Shown: in pieces, positions 48,735 to 64,000 of the stretch
How the letters are laid out: each line of letters starts with the position of its first letter
How positions within the stretch are numbered: the first letter of the stretch is position 1
Assembly (NCBI RefSeq): GCF_029714425.1
Contig: NZ_CP121668.1
Coordinates: forward strand, 2,811,501 to 2,875,500
Reading direction: 5' to 3'
From: Bradyrhizobium sp. CB2312
GTDB taxonomy: Bacteria; Pseudomonadota; Alphaproteobacteria; Rhizobiales; Xanthobacteraceae
Length of the DNA stretch: 64,000 nt
Translations under genes and position numbers: made by a program
The notes under the pieces: generated by a model
Told to the model about the DNA's origin: nothing
Database searches by the model: none
The model's input: the letters and a program-made list of their open reading frames with translations, nothing else

Positions 48735-49802
48735 TCATCCGCCTGGATCAGTTGCCTTCAACCGGCTTCGTGCCGAATGCCCCGTCCGACGTGGTGCAAT
48801 TGCCGGCACCAGCGTCGGTGCCTCACCCGCGATGCGCAACGCGAAATAGGCAATCGTGGCCTGAAGACCGTCCTGCAGTGCGACGCGAGGGCGCCATCCC
48901 AATAAGCGCACGGCGGTATCGATGACCGGCTTGCGGCGTTTTGGATCGTCTTTCGGCAGCGCTTCGAAGCGGAGAGGCGAGACCGATTCCGTATGCGTCA
49001 GGACCTCTCGGGCTATGGCCTCTATAGTGACCTCGTGCGGATTGCCAAGATTGCAGGGGCCGGTCACCGAGGCTGGGCTGTCCATGAGCAGCTGGAGGCC
49101 GCGCACGAGATCATCGACGAAGCAGAAGCTCCTCGTCTGCGTGCCGCCGCCGTATATCGTGATAGGCTTGCCGCGGAGCGCCTGCACGATGAAATTCGAG
49201 ACGACACGGCCGTCGTTCTCCAGCATGCGCGGGCCGTAGGTGTTGAAGATACGCGCGACCTTGATCTCAGTCCCGCACGTGCGGTGGTAGTCGAACATCA
49301 GCGTCTCGGCGGCGCGCTTGCCCTCGTCGTAGCAGGCCCGCGGTCCGATCGGGTTGACGTTGCCGAGATAGGATTCCGGCTGTGGATGTACCTCCGGATC
49401 GCCGTAGACCTCGCTGGTGGAAGCCTGCAAGACGCGGGCGCCCTTCCGGTACGCAAGTTCGAGCAGGTTGATGGTGCCGAGTACGCACGTCTTCATCGTG
49501 CCGACCGGATCCTTCTGGTAGTGCCGGGGCGAGGCGGGGCAGGCTAGGCTGTAGATCCGGTCGATCTCGCCACCGATCTCGATCTGCTCGCGCACATCAT
49601 GCTCGATGAAGCGGAAATTCGGATGGTTTAGCAGCGGCCTGATATTGTCGATGCTACCCGTAAGCAGATTGTCGATGCAGATCACCGCGTTGCCGCGCTG
49701 CAGGAGCGAATCGCAGAGATGAGAGCCGATGAACCCGGCGCCGCCGGCGATCAGCACGGTTGGCGAGTGGCGAAGCGTGGGGATACGGGTCTGCAGTGTC
49801 AT
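48735..49802 (-). CDS. uxs: UDP-glucuronate decarboxylase-like SDR (UDP-xylose synthase)
   Basis: A 355-residue extended short-chain dehydrogenase. The NAD site is LIAGGAGFIGSHLCDSLL, the catalytic Tyr-Lys is in ACYDEGKRAAETL, and SLACPASPRHYQKDPVGTMK, STSEVYGDPEVHPQPESYLG and NTYGPRMLENDGRVVSNFIV are diagnostic of UDP-glucuronate decarboxylases, which make UDP-xylose. Last gene of the cluster. The C-terminal 40 residues are extra relative to the family. Supplies a pentose donor for one of the glycosyltransferases. Confidence 0.85.
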   Translation of the reverse strand: MTLQTRIPTLRHSPTVLIAGGAGFIGSHLCDSLLQRGNAVICIDNLLTGSIDNIRPLLNHPNFRFIEHDVREQIEIGGEIDRIYSLACPASPRHYQKDPVGTMKTCVLGTINLLELAYRKGARVLQASTSEVYGDPEVHPQPESYLGNVNPIGPRACYDEGKRAAETLMFDYHRTCGTEIKVARIFNTYGPRMLENDGRVVSNFIVQALRGKPITIYGGGTQTRSFCFVDDLVRGLQLLMDSPASVTGPCNLGNPHEVTIEAIAREVLTHTESVSPLRFEALPKDDPKRRKPVIDTAVRLLGWRPRVALQDGLQATIAYFALRIAGEAPTLVPAIAPRRTGHSARSRLKATDPGG

Positions 49803-49813
49803 GGCAAGCACCT

Positions 49814-50938
49814 TCAGAGTTCGGCGACCTGCACAGGCCGGTTGGCCTGACGGGGCGCGGATTTGCGGTGGCGTCGCGCGGCTGCTTCGGCGTAGTAGGC
49901 CTCCAGCTGGCGGGCTCTGTGCTCGGACGTGTGAACGGAGAGGACGCGCCGGCGCGCGTTCTCCGCGATTGCGCGCCGGCGCTCTTCGGGCATATCGCGC
50001 AGGATCTCGATGACGTCGCGCGGGGTTGACGCAAGAAGAATTTCCCGCGACGGCTCGAAGATCGTCTCGATCCCTGGCCATCGATCGGAAATCACGGGCG
50101 TGCCACAGGCGGCCGCTTCAAACAGCCGGACGCTCGGCGAGAAGCCCAGCACGCGCATGTCGGCGCGGGTCGCATTCAAAGTGAACCGCTGCTCCGCGTA
50201 GAACATCGGGTGCTGCTTCGGAGCCAGATGCTCGATCCGCAAGACATTTTCGGGCCAGTGGATACCTTCAGGATATTGCGCGCCAGCGACCGCGAATTGC
50301 TCCGACGGCAGCGTTCGCGCCGGCGACAACATCAATTGATCAAGGATGGGTTGCCGGTCCTCGCTGTAGGTTCCGAGATAACCGAGCGCCCATTTCGTCT
50401 GCGCCTGTTGCGGTGCGTATGTATAGGTGTCGGCGCTACAATAGAGAACCCGTGCCATCGGGCTGCCGTAGCGCTGCTCGATCATCTCCGGCACCGGACC
50501 GCCGGCGAAGGATAGATAGAGGTCGAAACGCGGGATCATCGCGGCGGACAAATAGTCGAGGCCCTGGTCGAGCCGGGCCAGCGTCACCGGCGTGTCGATG
50601 TCGTAGAAGGCGGTGAGTCCTCGCGCCTGACTCGTGATCCATTCAGAGATGGCGATGCCATCCGGCACATAAGACCCGATGATGATGAGATCGGCGTCTT
50701 TGACCAACTTTCCGAAGCGGCGAGGGACATCCTTCAGCGACTGATAGAGCTCGACCGTCCACGACAACGGCTTGGTGAGATCGCGATGCTCGCGATACCA
50801 GGCAGTGTCGCGTTCCAGGAACGTAACTTTGTGGCCTCGCCGCGCGAGCGCCTCGATCAGGGCGCGATAGGTCGTGGCATGACCATTGCCCCATGACGAT
50901 GTGACCGAAAGACCGACGACGACGATGCTGAGGTTCAT
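49814..50938 (-). CDS. Glycosyltransferase (CgeB/Glyco_trans_1_2 type)
   Basis: A 374-residue soluble GT-B enzyme. It opens SIVVVGLSVTSSWGNGHATT, has a middle FYDIDTPVTLARL, YLGTYSEDRQPILDQLM, and the C-terminal nucleotide-sugar region RLFEAAACGTPVISDRWPGI. Closely similar throughout to the product of 61644, so they are paralogues; 50935 and 52020 are more distant. The start overlaps the stop of the upstream gene (ATGA). Donor and acceptor unknown. Confidence 0.82.
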   Translation of the reverse strand: MNLSIVVVGLSVTSSWGNGHATTYRALIEALARRGHKVTFLERDTAWYREHRDLTKPLSWTVELYQSLKDVPRRFGKLVKDADLIIIGSYVPDGIAISEWITSQARGLTAFYDIDTPVTLARLDQGLDYLSAAMIPRFDLYLSFAGGPVPEMIEQRYGSPMARVLYCSADTYTYAPQQAQTKWALGYLGTYSEDRQPILDQLMLSPARTLPSEQFAVAGAQYPEGIHWPENVLRIEHLAPKQHPMFYAEQRFTLNATRADMRVLGFSPSVRLFEAAACGTPVISDRWPGIETIFEPSREILLASTPRDVIEILRDMPEERRRAIAENARRRVLSVHTSEHRARQLEAYYAEAAARRHRKSAPRQANRPVQVAEL

Positions 50939-62747: not shown

Positions 62748-63340
62748 GCCGGCACCCGCTGGTTGATCCCAGTGATCCTGAATCCGCGTCGATCGGCACT
62801 GAGCGTGCTGACACTAGAGGGATCGATCTTGATCGAAAGAAAGTCATCGAGCCGCATACGTGCGTAATGCAATAGCGCGGCGCGAATGGGCTCGGCGTGG
62901 CTGATTGCGATCATCGAGTCCGCAAGAGGATCAGAGCGCAGTTGCTCCAGATGATGGACAACGCGATTCTGCAGCGAGCGCATGCTCTCGCCCCCCGGTG
63001 GACGAGTGCTGCCCCGGCGGCTGTTCCAGCGTGACCATTGCGGATCCTTGCTGAGTTCCTTGAAAGACCGGCCGGTCCATTCGCCATAGTCGAGCTCGTC
63101 GAGAGCGGGAACGATCTCGATCGGCAATCCGAAGCGCGCGGCCAGAATGCTGGCCGATTGCATACAGCGCCTCTGCGGGCTCGACTGGATCAGCGACGGC
63201 CGGGGGCTGACGTTGGCCGCACAACGGGCAATCTCCTCGCAGCCGATGTCATCGAGCGTGACGCCGCTCATTCGGCCGCACAGCGTGCGGCCGAGCAGGG
63301 CATGGTGACCGTGACGCACGAGATGGATGATCCTCGCCAT
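62744..63340 (-). CDS. Histidine phosphatase family protein
   Basis: A 198-residue phosphoglycerate-mutase-like phosphatase. The catalytic motif is LVRHGHH at the N-terminus; the second His is in ISHAEPIRAA; SSPQRRCMQSASILA and ELDYGEWTGRSF are typical. ATG 63340 (MARIIHLVRHG) overlaps the inositol-phosphate synthase stop. Next to that gene it may release free inositol or dephosphorylate another intermediate. Confidence 0.85.
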   Translation of the reverse strand: MARIIHLVRHGHHALLGRTLCGRMSGVTLDDIGCEEIARCAANVSPRPSLIQSSPQRRCMQSASILAARFGLPIEIVPALDELDYGEWTGRSFKELSKDPQWSRWNSRRGSTRPPGGESMRSLQNRVVHHLEQLRSDPLADSMIAISHAEPIRAALLHYARMRLDDFLSIKIDPSSVSTLSADRRGFRITGINQRVPA

Positions 63341-64000
63341 CAGGTGCATACCTTGTCTTCGATGAAGGCGCGCGTCCGCCGTCCGGCCTCCTCATCGGTG
63401 AACTGCTGCGGCGGCGATTTCATGAAATAGCTGGAGGGACCGGTCAGGGCGCCGCCCTGACCGCGATCCATCGCAAGTTTCGCGCAGCGGACTGCGTCGA
63501 TCACGACGCCCGCCGAGTTCGGGGAGTCCCAGACCTCGAGCTTGACCTCGGCGCTCAAGGGCACGCCGCCGAAGGTCGTGCCTTCGAGCCGGATGAAGGC
63601 GAGCTTGCGGTCCGTCAGCCATGGGACGTGGTCGCTTGGGCCGACGTGAATGTTATCGGGGTCCATCGGGACGTCGAACTGGCTGGTGACGGCCTGAGTC
63701 TTGGAGATCTTCTTGGAGGTCAATCGCTCGCGTTCGAGCATATTCTTGAAATCGGTGTTGCCGCCGACATTGAGCTGATAAGTGCGGTCCAGCCGCACGC
63801 CGCGATCGCGAAACAGATTGGCGAGCACGCGGTGCAGGATGGTGGCGCCGACCTGGCTCTTGATGTCGTCGCCGACGATCGGAAGGCCCGCATCCTCGAA
63901 CCGCTGCCGCCAGTCCGGATTGGAGGCGATGAAGACGGGAATGCAATTGACATAGCCGCAGCCGGCTTCGATCGCGCGCGCCGCATACCATTCGCTTGCG
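63340..64000 (-). CDS. ino1: Inositol-3-phosphate synthase, partial (5' end outside window)
   Basis: The C-terminal 219 residues of myo-inositol-1(3)-phosphate synthase, which converts glucose-6-phosphate to inositol-3-phosphate with NAD. Visible motifs: CGYVNCIPVFIASNPDWRQR, VGDDIKSQVGATILHRVLAN, QLNVGGNTDFKNML, HVGPSDHVPWLTD and a C-terminal SSYFMKSPP segment. It is of the short bacterial/archaeal type. The frame is open to the window edge. It appears to be the first step of the cluster, or close to it, and provides a cyclitol. Confidence 0.9.
   Translation of the reverse strand, partial: ASEWYAARAIEAGCGYVNCIPVFIASNPDWRQRFEDAGLPIVGDDIKSQVGATILHRVLANLFRDRGVRLDRTYQLNVGGNTDFKNMLERERLTSKKISKTQAVTSQFDVPMDPDNIHVGPSDHVPWLTDRKLAFIRLEGTTFGGVPLSAEVKLEVWDSPNSAGVVIDAVRCAKLAMDRGQGGALTGPSSYFMKSPPQQFTDEEAGRRTRAFIEDKVCT

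Follow-up and report, generated by a model that had tools for sequence, protein, structure and literature searches.

A block of 15 genes, all on the minus strand, lies at one end of a 64,000-nucleotide stretch of DNA from Bradyrhizobium sp. CB2312 (the window; C1:2811501-2875500, where C1 is contig NZ_CP121668.1, the one contig of this 9.78-Mb genome). The block runs from window position 48735 to past position 64000 and reads, from its first gene, ino1, HisP, GTe, NTase, MT, GH, DeoB, Epi2, Epi1, rSAM, GTd, GTc, GTb, GTa and XylS. A preliminary description made from the letters alone had named all of these genes in a single one-strand block, as we also find; it gave their number as 14, though its own list came to 15. 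With gene starts placed by homology, 11 of the 14 junctions are overlaps, eight of exactly 4 bases and the others of 1, 1 and 13 bases, and three are gaps of 1, 11 and 210 bases. Hence the earlier remark that nearly all junctions are 4-base overlaps was somewhat overstated. The 210-base gap, between deoB and Epi2, splits the block into two units that are separate in other genomes.

The first unit opens with ino1 (reading frame C1:2874840-2875940), whose 3' part is window 63340..64000; the gene and its promoter extend past the window end. Its product (PF01658) scores 523.5 bits over positions 1-355 against TIGR03450, the mycothiol-type equivalog, which is below the cutoff of 638; judged by these scores, Ino1 is an inositol-3-phosphate synthase homologue and not a TIGR03450 equivalog. 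Next come HisP, a predicted histidine phosphatase with RHG near its N terminus (62744..63340; PF00300, E 7e-38), and two genes that we class as accessory: GTe, a glycosyltransferase of the Glyco_trans_1_2 type (61644..62747; PF13524, E 4e-39) mostly found alongside its neighbour, and that neighbour, NTase, a putative sugar-1-phosphate nucleotidyltransferase (60833..61642; PF00483, E 3e-8) for which a PDB search at E<=1e-8 gave no match. MT is an S-adenosylmethionine (SAM) methyltransferase of family TIGR04290 (60072..60836; 378.4 bits, cutoff 300). The unit ends with GH, a glycoside hydrolase barrel (59119..60072) that alignment, BLASTP and a structure model mark as circularly permuted, and DeoB, an accessory phosphopentomutase (57926..59131; TIGR01696, 460 bits, cutoff 341).

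The second unit starts with two predicted sugar-nucleotide epimerases. Epi2 is GalE-like (56603..57715; PF01370, E 2e-53; best match among PDB epimerases, E 2e-47). Epi1 (55539..56606) has as its closest solved homologues 9rl0 (E 6e-81) and 1orr (E 5e-79), far ahead of the next protein (E 1e-37), which places it by a wide margin closest to CDP-tyvelose/paratose 2-epimerase, with C2 epimerization as the predicted activity. Behind them lie rSAM, a B12-binding radical SAM enzyme (54256..55542; TIGR04295, 711 bits, cutoff 400, positions 1-422 of 422), and four glycosyltransferases: GTd, which is GT4-like (53147..54259; PF00534 and PF13439, both E 8e-16), and GTc (52020..53150; E 2e-30), GTb (50935..52023; E 2e-36) and GTa (49814..50938; E 8e-41), all matching PF13524. 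The five glycosyltransferases of the block thus comprise one GT4-like enzyme and four of the Pfam Glyco_trans_1_2 type. GTa has a single, weak PDB match, D-inositol 3-phosphate glycosyltransferase (E 9e-5). The last gene, XylS, appears to encode a UDP-glucuronate decarboxylase, that is, a UDP-xylose synthase (48735..49802; PF01370/PF16363), and its plasmid orthologues are annotated UDP-glucuronic acid decarboxylase.

The 14 proteins that lie fully inside the window look cytosolic: the highest 19-residue hydropathy mean among them is 1.60, and no membrane span was seen. Domain searches of the 15 proteins found no polymerase, ligase, flippase, lipid-carrier transferase or transporter. The first four of these absences bear out the preliminary description, which had held that the set matches no standard lipopolysaccharide (LPS) or exopolysaccharide (EPS) locus.

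Do these genes form one pathway? We surveyed loci by rSAM, taking the best 80 of 101; 37 of these are named Bradyrhizobium loci (L029-L065; here and below, L denotes a locus and G a genome). The nearest locus by rSAM is that of B. sacchari, at 98% identity. All 15 genes are present in 34 of the 37 Bradyrhizobium loci, much more than chance would give; GTc is broken into two reading frames in 2 of the 34, and of the remaining three loci, two end at a contig edge and one is without DeoB. Outside Bradyrhizobium, the genes fall into two modules, Epi2-Epi1-rSAM-GTd-GTc-GTb-GTa-XylS (module A) and Ino1-HisP-(GTe-NTase)-MT-GH-(DeoB) (module B), which are variously adjacent, divergent or apart. Module B is separate from module A in L124, L125 and L126, and also in L130, where it runs in two directions. 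Nearly every uncut locus holds the core Epi2, Epi1, GTd, GTc, GTb and GTa, usually with XylS and MT and with the glycosidase in one of two forms.

Linkage is not needed for the genes to be kept together. Six Methylobacterium genomes (L068, L077, L081, L084, L087 and L097) have the shortened locus Epi2-Epi1-rSAM-GTd-GTc, with GTb-GTa, Ino1 and MT outside the 10-kb flanks, yet these are present in all six. Among 119 genomes of the same family, rSAM scores over the cutoff in 11. Every one of the 11 has the permuted GH, against 1 of the 108 others (G012, a fragment; Fisher P = 1e-14, uncorrected for kinship), and every one has Ino1, again against 1 of 108 (G089, 49% identity). In a sample of 299 genomes from the phylum, each at least 90% complete, MT was found in 11, among them each of the 8 that have rSAM (Fisher P = 1e-13, likewise uncorrected). 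Thirteen genomes were selected from those lacking Ino1 at the rSAM locus, and in 11 of them it is encoded elsewhere; two plasmid records searched together with them have none. A search of 18 genomes for unlinked retention recovered MT in 16, above the cutoff in 15. The prospect, raised in the preliminary description, that homologues are never co-conserved therefore fails, since cluster genes are co-retained even when unlinked. We conclude that the block is one co-conserved pathway.

The pathway is patchily distributed. rSAM was not found in the other seven sampled members of the genus, and the cluster is therefore accessory. Several Azospirillum plasmids carry it, as does each of two Bradyrhizobium sp. 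195 plasmids typed as conjugative (L109 and L114). Strain 195 accordingly has two copies, and two are also seen on two contigs of Bradyrhizobium sp. 164 (L033 and L049). Transposase genes lie at window positions 13097-14431 and 28346-29794, on the far side of the stress-gene island described below, and are consistent with acquired DNA.

rSAM and MT exceed the cutoffs of dedicated NCBI models, TIGR04295 and TIGR04290. We take these to be the families that TIGRFAM notes call "rhizo-twelve," a name that the preliminary description had already connected with a similar set; the name itself is absent from the 5.39 million papers searched. Searches with the family names and the enzyme combination likewise found no paper, and a further one listed four whose titles deal with other subjects (subscription papers and preprints lay outside their scope). 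Three of the 11 MT genomes of the phylum sample (G348, G261 and G360) have MT without rSAM. In all three the cluster is present and rSAM is missing from its usual place (the GTb frame is not shown in one). Epi1 and GTd overlap by 4 bases in two rSAM-less loci, L150 and L151; in L152, the GTb, GH and MT frames are hidden by the overlap rule of the reading-frame display, and MT was detected there by search. Hence rSAM lies outside the scaffold of the pathway and is an optional tailoring step. Its PDB relatives are all weak (AprD4, E 2e-6; an uncharacterized radical SAM protein, E 2e-4; TokK, E 8e-4), and that its reaction is C-methylation is our guess. In the PDB, MT matches the ToxA protein best (E 3e-13) and also CmoB-type tRNA methyltransferases and EvdMO1. 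The rSAM-less clusters L151 (5670-7621) and L152 (11998-13101) have a zinc-type dehydrogenase after ino1, and L151 has a Gfo/Idh/MocA oxidoreductase in addition; these enzymes could oxidize inositol.

The glycosidase exists in two arrangements. Alignment of 58 locus copies places the GH start at an ATG or GTG just before a WNEPN motif; 55 fit this pattern, three have a near variant, and a 59th piece (L009) is cut. Tistrella and a Geminicoccaceae plasmid have the unpermuted order instead, as an N-terminal glycosidase domain on a longer Epi1 gene. BLASTP aligned the window GH to the Tistrella domain in two swapped blocks: GH residues 6-189 with Tistrella residues 121-302 (35% identity, E 1e-32) and GH residues 195-298 with Tistrella residues 13-114 (36%, E 6e-15). 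Three other GH copies gave the same two swapped blocks, as did the Geminicoccaceae domain. On these alignments, GH is circularly permuted. Enzymes of the retaining clan GH-A are (beta/alpha)8 barrels with the acid/base glutamate at strand 4 and the nucleophile glutamate at strand 7. Our GH model has eight strands (mean predicted local distance difference test score 77, predicted template modeling score 0.80, residues 150-172 poor) and puts E10 just past strand 1 and E112 where strand 4 ends; both residues are invariant in 24 of 24 aligned sequences. For GH as a putative clan GH-A glycosidase, the spacing in the model is what a turn of the barrel by three strands would produce. Hydropathy indicated no membrane span in GH, and a search for GH in phages gave no match. 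Database records name its relatives beta-xylosidase and, in one case, "putative transglycosidase." The unpermuted Epi1 fusion occurs in L071, L072, L073, L112, L113, L150 and L153.

Upstream of ino1 we found a motif of the kind recognized in the general stress response. The sequence GGAAC-N16/17-CGTT precedes ino1 in 38 of 38 Bradyrhizobium loci, against 0.17 matches expected from shuffling over 74 Bradyrhizobium unit starts; the opposite strand gave none. In the source genome the motif occupies C1:2875990-2876015, a short way past the window end. When the loci are aligned, GGAAC and ACGTTCG show at least 97% constancy and mid-spacer positions vary; some bases beside and below these elements are constant too. 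At unit starts elsewhere, the strict motif was found at 12 of 79 (0.15 expected) and a relaxed form, GGAAC-N17/18-GTT, at 19 of 79 (0.49 expected; reversed control, 2); two loci (L072/L154 and L104/L155) were included twice and contain no matches. An earlier, smaller set of loci had 10 matches at 63 starts (0.09 expected). The EcfG motif of Sphingomonas melonis is GGAAC-N17-20-GTT, stated there to match the EcfG consensus (PMC6599016); the excerpts of PMC3420878 contain no GGAAC motif. From sequence comparison, then, ino1 carries an EcfG-type promoter motif that is conserved among orthologues.

The start of the second unit is less clear-cut. GGAAC is present in 36 of 36 aligned Bradyrhizobium deoB-Epi2 gaps, within a conserved element (window 57828..57854, minus strand) that has a degenerate -10 (GCTT), and an internal promoter here is possible. 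Upstream of this element, a long conserved block, TTCAC....GTTATTGATCCAGGTTAGAGAAAT, is seen in the same gaps (window 57716-57925); it is possibly a regulator site.

The surroundings of the block are also those of stress genes. Beside it, window 35569-47438 is a heat shock and proteostasis island with two Hsp20 genes with a ROSE element, KaiC and a hybrid histidine kinase, GreA, a trypsin/PDZ protease, a third Hsp20 gene with ROSE, and GroEL. ROSE RNA thermosensors score above the Rfam gathering threshold at the starts of Hsp20 genes at 38140-38258 (plus strand) and 47312-47406 (minus strand). On the other side, past the window end, are a Crp-like regulator, a GH13 gene and a CsbD match that is weak and below the Pfam cutoff. 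The Tistrella cluster has directly upstream of it a gene for a sigma factor that contains a PhyR_sigma2 domain, and a topoisomerase IB gene lies between XylS and MT, followed by Ku, LigD and cold shock genes; topoisomerase IB also lies between GTb and MT in L153. Topoisomerase IB and Ku appear in the table of EcfG-controlled genes of S. melonis (PMC6599016). A Bradyrhizobium plasmid has treZ near the cluster, and the Geminicoccaceae plasmid has a manganese catalase; the neighbours in Azospirillum lipoferum (nitrate reduction, a potassium channel and a quinol oxidase) are less telling.

The EcfG-type motif, the cytosolic make-up and the neighbours point to a protectant. We propose that the two units form a pathway under the general stress response of alphaproteobacteria that makes a cytosolic, methylated hetero-oligosaccharide, usually containing inositol, which protects the cell as trehalose does; we consider this reading about evenly balanced between right and wrong. 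In B. diazoefficiens, EcfG-controlled trehalose is a chemical chaperone (PMC8092242). Since the core genes are kept in nearly every uncut locus, the common product would be a short methylated chain of about four sugars, including xylose, and inositol, a fifth sugar (through GTe-NTase, perhaps a pentose supplied via DeoB) and the radical SAM change would be options taken by particular lineages. Substrates, order of steps, product and role are all our inference, as follows. Ino1 would convert glucose-6-phosphate to inositol-3-phosphate, a glycosyltransferase would take the latter as acceptor, and HisP would strip the phosphate from inositol phosphate or from its glycoside, by the logic of OtsA/OtsB or MshA. 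XylS would supply UDP-xylose, Epi2 (at C4) and Epi1 (at C2) would supply further sugar nucleotides, and DeoB and NTase, where present, would provide GTe with an extra activated pentose. The chain would then be assembled by GTd, GTc, GTb and GTa; MT would add a methyl group, and rSAM, where present, would modify one unactivated carbon, most probably by C-methylation. The permuted glycosidase would trim or transglycosylate an inositol-linked intermediate, and the finished oligosaccharide would accumulate under stress.

Several observations weigh against this proposal. The 38 Bradyrhizobium loci with the motif are related and not independent; at unit starts of other loci, the strict motif is missing from 67 of 79 and the relaxed one from 60 of 79; the 63-start count gave 3 matches on the opposite strand, which divergent units may explain; and none of the 36 Bradyrhizobium deoB-Epi2 gaps has the strict motif. 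Across the whole genome, the strict motif and its reversed control are equally frequent (196 each), so that one occurrence proves little; what carries weight is that the motif is conserved where orthologous units begin. The Tistrella sigma factor is not identified as EcfG by NCBI models. That export genes are missing from the cluster is no proof that its product is intracellular. MT was not found in G130 and G131 among the 18 genomes searched. Finally, Ino1 is absent at E<=1e-30 from four of five genomes with the unpermuted fusion (G126, G131, G348 and G391); it was also not found, at the same threshold, in G132 (a 2.5-Mb draft with the permuted GH), and a separate search did not find it in G012 (a draft with the GH fragment and no rSAM over the cutoff). 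Because Ino1 is missing from several cluster genomes, inositol is not a universal component.

This last result bears on the glycosidase. The fifth genome with the unpermuted fusion, G125, has Ino1 and also the permuted GH. G131 is a metagenome draft, L112 and L113 were searchable on plasmids only, and the permuted GH was looked for in G126, G131, G348 and G391 only at the loci read. That the unpermuted form mostly goes without Ino1, with G132 and G012 as exceptions on the permuted side, is a hint that the permuted GH acts on the inositol-linked part of the product. In G132, the operon L156 (2398-5419) has genes for a PIG-L deacetylase, a GT4 enzyme and a GNAT-type protein between DeoB and GH, as though that lineage attached an amino sugar or an acyl group. 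The preliminary description had predicted a product combining a cyclitol, a pentose and a C-methylated or rearranged sugar. These components are partly supported; they are not a fixed recipe, with rSAM missing from 3 of 11 MT genomes and Ino1 from most genomes with the unpermuted fusion. Going further, the product might represent an unrecognized class of stress solute, headed by inositol, O-methylated and optionally C-methylated, in which the permuted GH is a transglycosidase that frees inositol, inositol-less lineages use the unpermuted Epi1 fusion, and the whole is a counterpart of plant galactinol and raffinose. We regard this extension as speculative and rather doubtful.

Might the product instead be a membrane glycolipid, with inositol passing into phosphatidylinositol and the glycosyltransferases building a mannoside-like glycan on it? 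Ino1 is related to the actinobacterial type (TIGR03450), the one PDB match of GTa is in keeping with the idea, and five cytosolic glycosyltransferases could act at the inner membrane face. However, there is no phosphatidylinositol synthase or flippase among the 15 proteins (the rest of the genome was not searched), the glycosyltransferases are kept in four genomes where Ino1 was not found, and a cytosolic glycosidase would seem better suited to a soluble intermediate. We think a glycolipid unlikely. A secreted signal or antibiotic-like oligosaccharide, resembling an orthosomycin and perhaps serving plant or soil interactions, is less probable again. B12 radical SAM tailoring together with a methyltransferase is typical of natural products, EvdMO1 is among the PDB matches of MT, and the patchy distribution and plasmid locations also suit such a product. 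Yet the 15 proteins include no exporter, self-resistance gene or regulator, the promoter motif and neighbours are those of stress, and the hosts come from nodules, wheat rhizosphere and coral alike.

The many sugar enzymes could also suggest an O-antigen or EPS locus, such as one making bradyrhizose, the sugar with a fused inositol that photosynthetic Bradyrhizobium has in its O antigen. Among the best 120 clusters at 90% identity, GH is recorded for ORS 285, ORS 375 and STM 3809; PMC4743980 names these three among its six photosynthetic strains. Against this, the block lacks a polymerase, ligase, flippase and lipid-carrier transferase, the nearest Wzy_C gene is about 0.84 Mb away in the source genome, and the cluster is found in Methylobacterium and Azospirillum as well. 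A candidate region for bradyrhizose, a cluster of 11 genes that includes a dTDP-glucose 4,6-dehydratase and lies about 40 kb from rfaL, has already been published (PMC4743980; compared with ours by description). We judge this explanation very improbable. A low-molecular-weight thiol like mycothiol, an inositol glycoside joined to cysteine, is harder still to credit. Ino1, the phosphatase and the GT4 enzyme parallel the first steps of mycothiol synthesis, and the distant operon L156 adds its PIG-L deacetylase and GNAT gene. But the 15 proteins include no cysteine ligase, GTd reaches 29.5 bits with the MshA model TIGR03449 (cutoff 462.5), and XylS, the epimerases and four further glycosyltransferases would be left unexplained. 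A search of the cluster proteins listed no TIGR03449 match for GTa to GTc or GTe at E<=0.001.

How does the proposed stress-solute pathway compare with known systems? It resembles the EcfG-controlled trehalose pathway of Bradyrhizobium (OtsA/OtsB), which likewise yields a stress-induced cytosolic sugar solute, a glycosyl group being transferred to a sugar phosphate before a phosphatase acts; the EcfG control shared by the two is, in our case, a promoter motif only. Unlike that system of two or three genes, ours has 15, and would make a hetero-oligosaccharide with inositol, methylation, a radical SAM step and a glycosidase. The mycothiol pathway consists of Ino1, MshA, a phosphatase, MshB, MshC and MshD; the likeness lies in the related Ino1 type, the phosphatase and inositol-3-phosphate as the likely glycosyl acceptor, and the differences are that the cluster has no MshA equivalog by score, no cysteine ligase and many more sugar enzymes. 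In plants under desiccation stress, galactinol, an inositol glycoside, gives rise to raffinose when a transglycosidase of a GH family hands on its sugar. This is an analogy only, as the enzymes are unrelated. GH70 glucansucrases are permuted relatives of GH13 and so another natural circular permutation of a glycosidase barrel; they are extracellular, whereas the present GH is of a different clan, rotated by three strands and apparently cytosolic. The uncharacterized cluster behind TIGR04290 and TIGR04295 is evidently the same as ours. The NCBIfam descriptions shown name single proteins, and the promoter, the two units, the optional rSAM and the permuted GH are not in them.

What was known already, then, are the NCBI models for two of the proteins. 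To the preliminary description we add the stress promoter motif and the stress genes nearby, the division into two units and the permutation of the glycosidase; the optional rSAM and the unpermuted fusion found mostly without ino1 are new here as well. The cluster would be an operon for a sugar solute under stress control, whose set of enzymes is unusual and in part rearranged. In B. diazoefficiens, trehalose is only part of the EcfG effect, other EcfG functions serving competitiveness and alkaline and oxidative stress (PMC8092242). If our proposal is right, a 15-gene pathway with a stress motif, kept through reshuffling and partly on conjugative plasmids, means that both a new protectant and a sugar of a new kind are there to be sought. 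ino1 may serve as a marker of the product, since Ino1 was rarely met without this pathway in the same-family sample (of 12 genomes with Ino1, 11 have both). Permuted and unpermuted glycosidases within one pathway are, in addition, a natural experiment in barrel rearrangement.

Some further features of the flanks were noted. Pyrroloquinoline quinone (PQQ)-dependent dehydrogenases and cytochrome c are encoded further out from the cluster (L008 8335-15949), and PQQ dehydrogenase and cytochrome oxidase genes likewise lie near it in L112 and L114. Outside Bradyrhizobium, no flanking gene family (all unannotated) besides those of the cluster is common to more than 8 of 43 loci. In Bradyrhizobium, families 0-2 lie beside the cluster in 34 to 37 of 38 loci, upstream of ino1 in the examples shown. 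A conserved frame of family 1, 352 amino acids long here and just beyond the window end (L008:2446-3504, plus strand), present in 37 of the 38 loci, faces away from ino1 and has no Pfam match at E<=0.001; its counterpart on both sp. 195 plasmids, matched by place without alignment, is annotated as a hypothetical protein. This frame may share the promoter region of ino1 or be a sixteenth member of the cluster.

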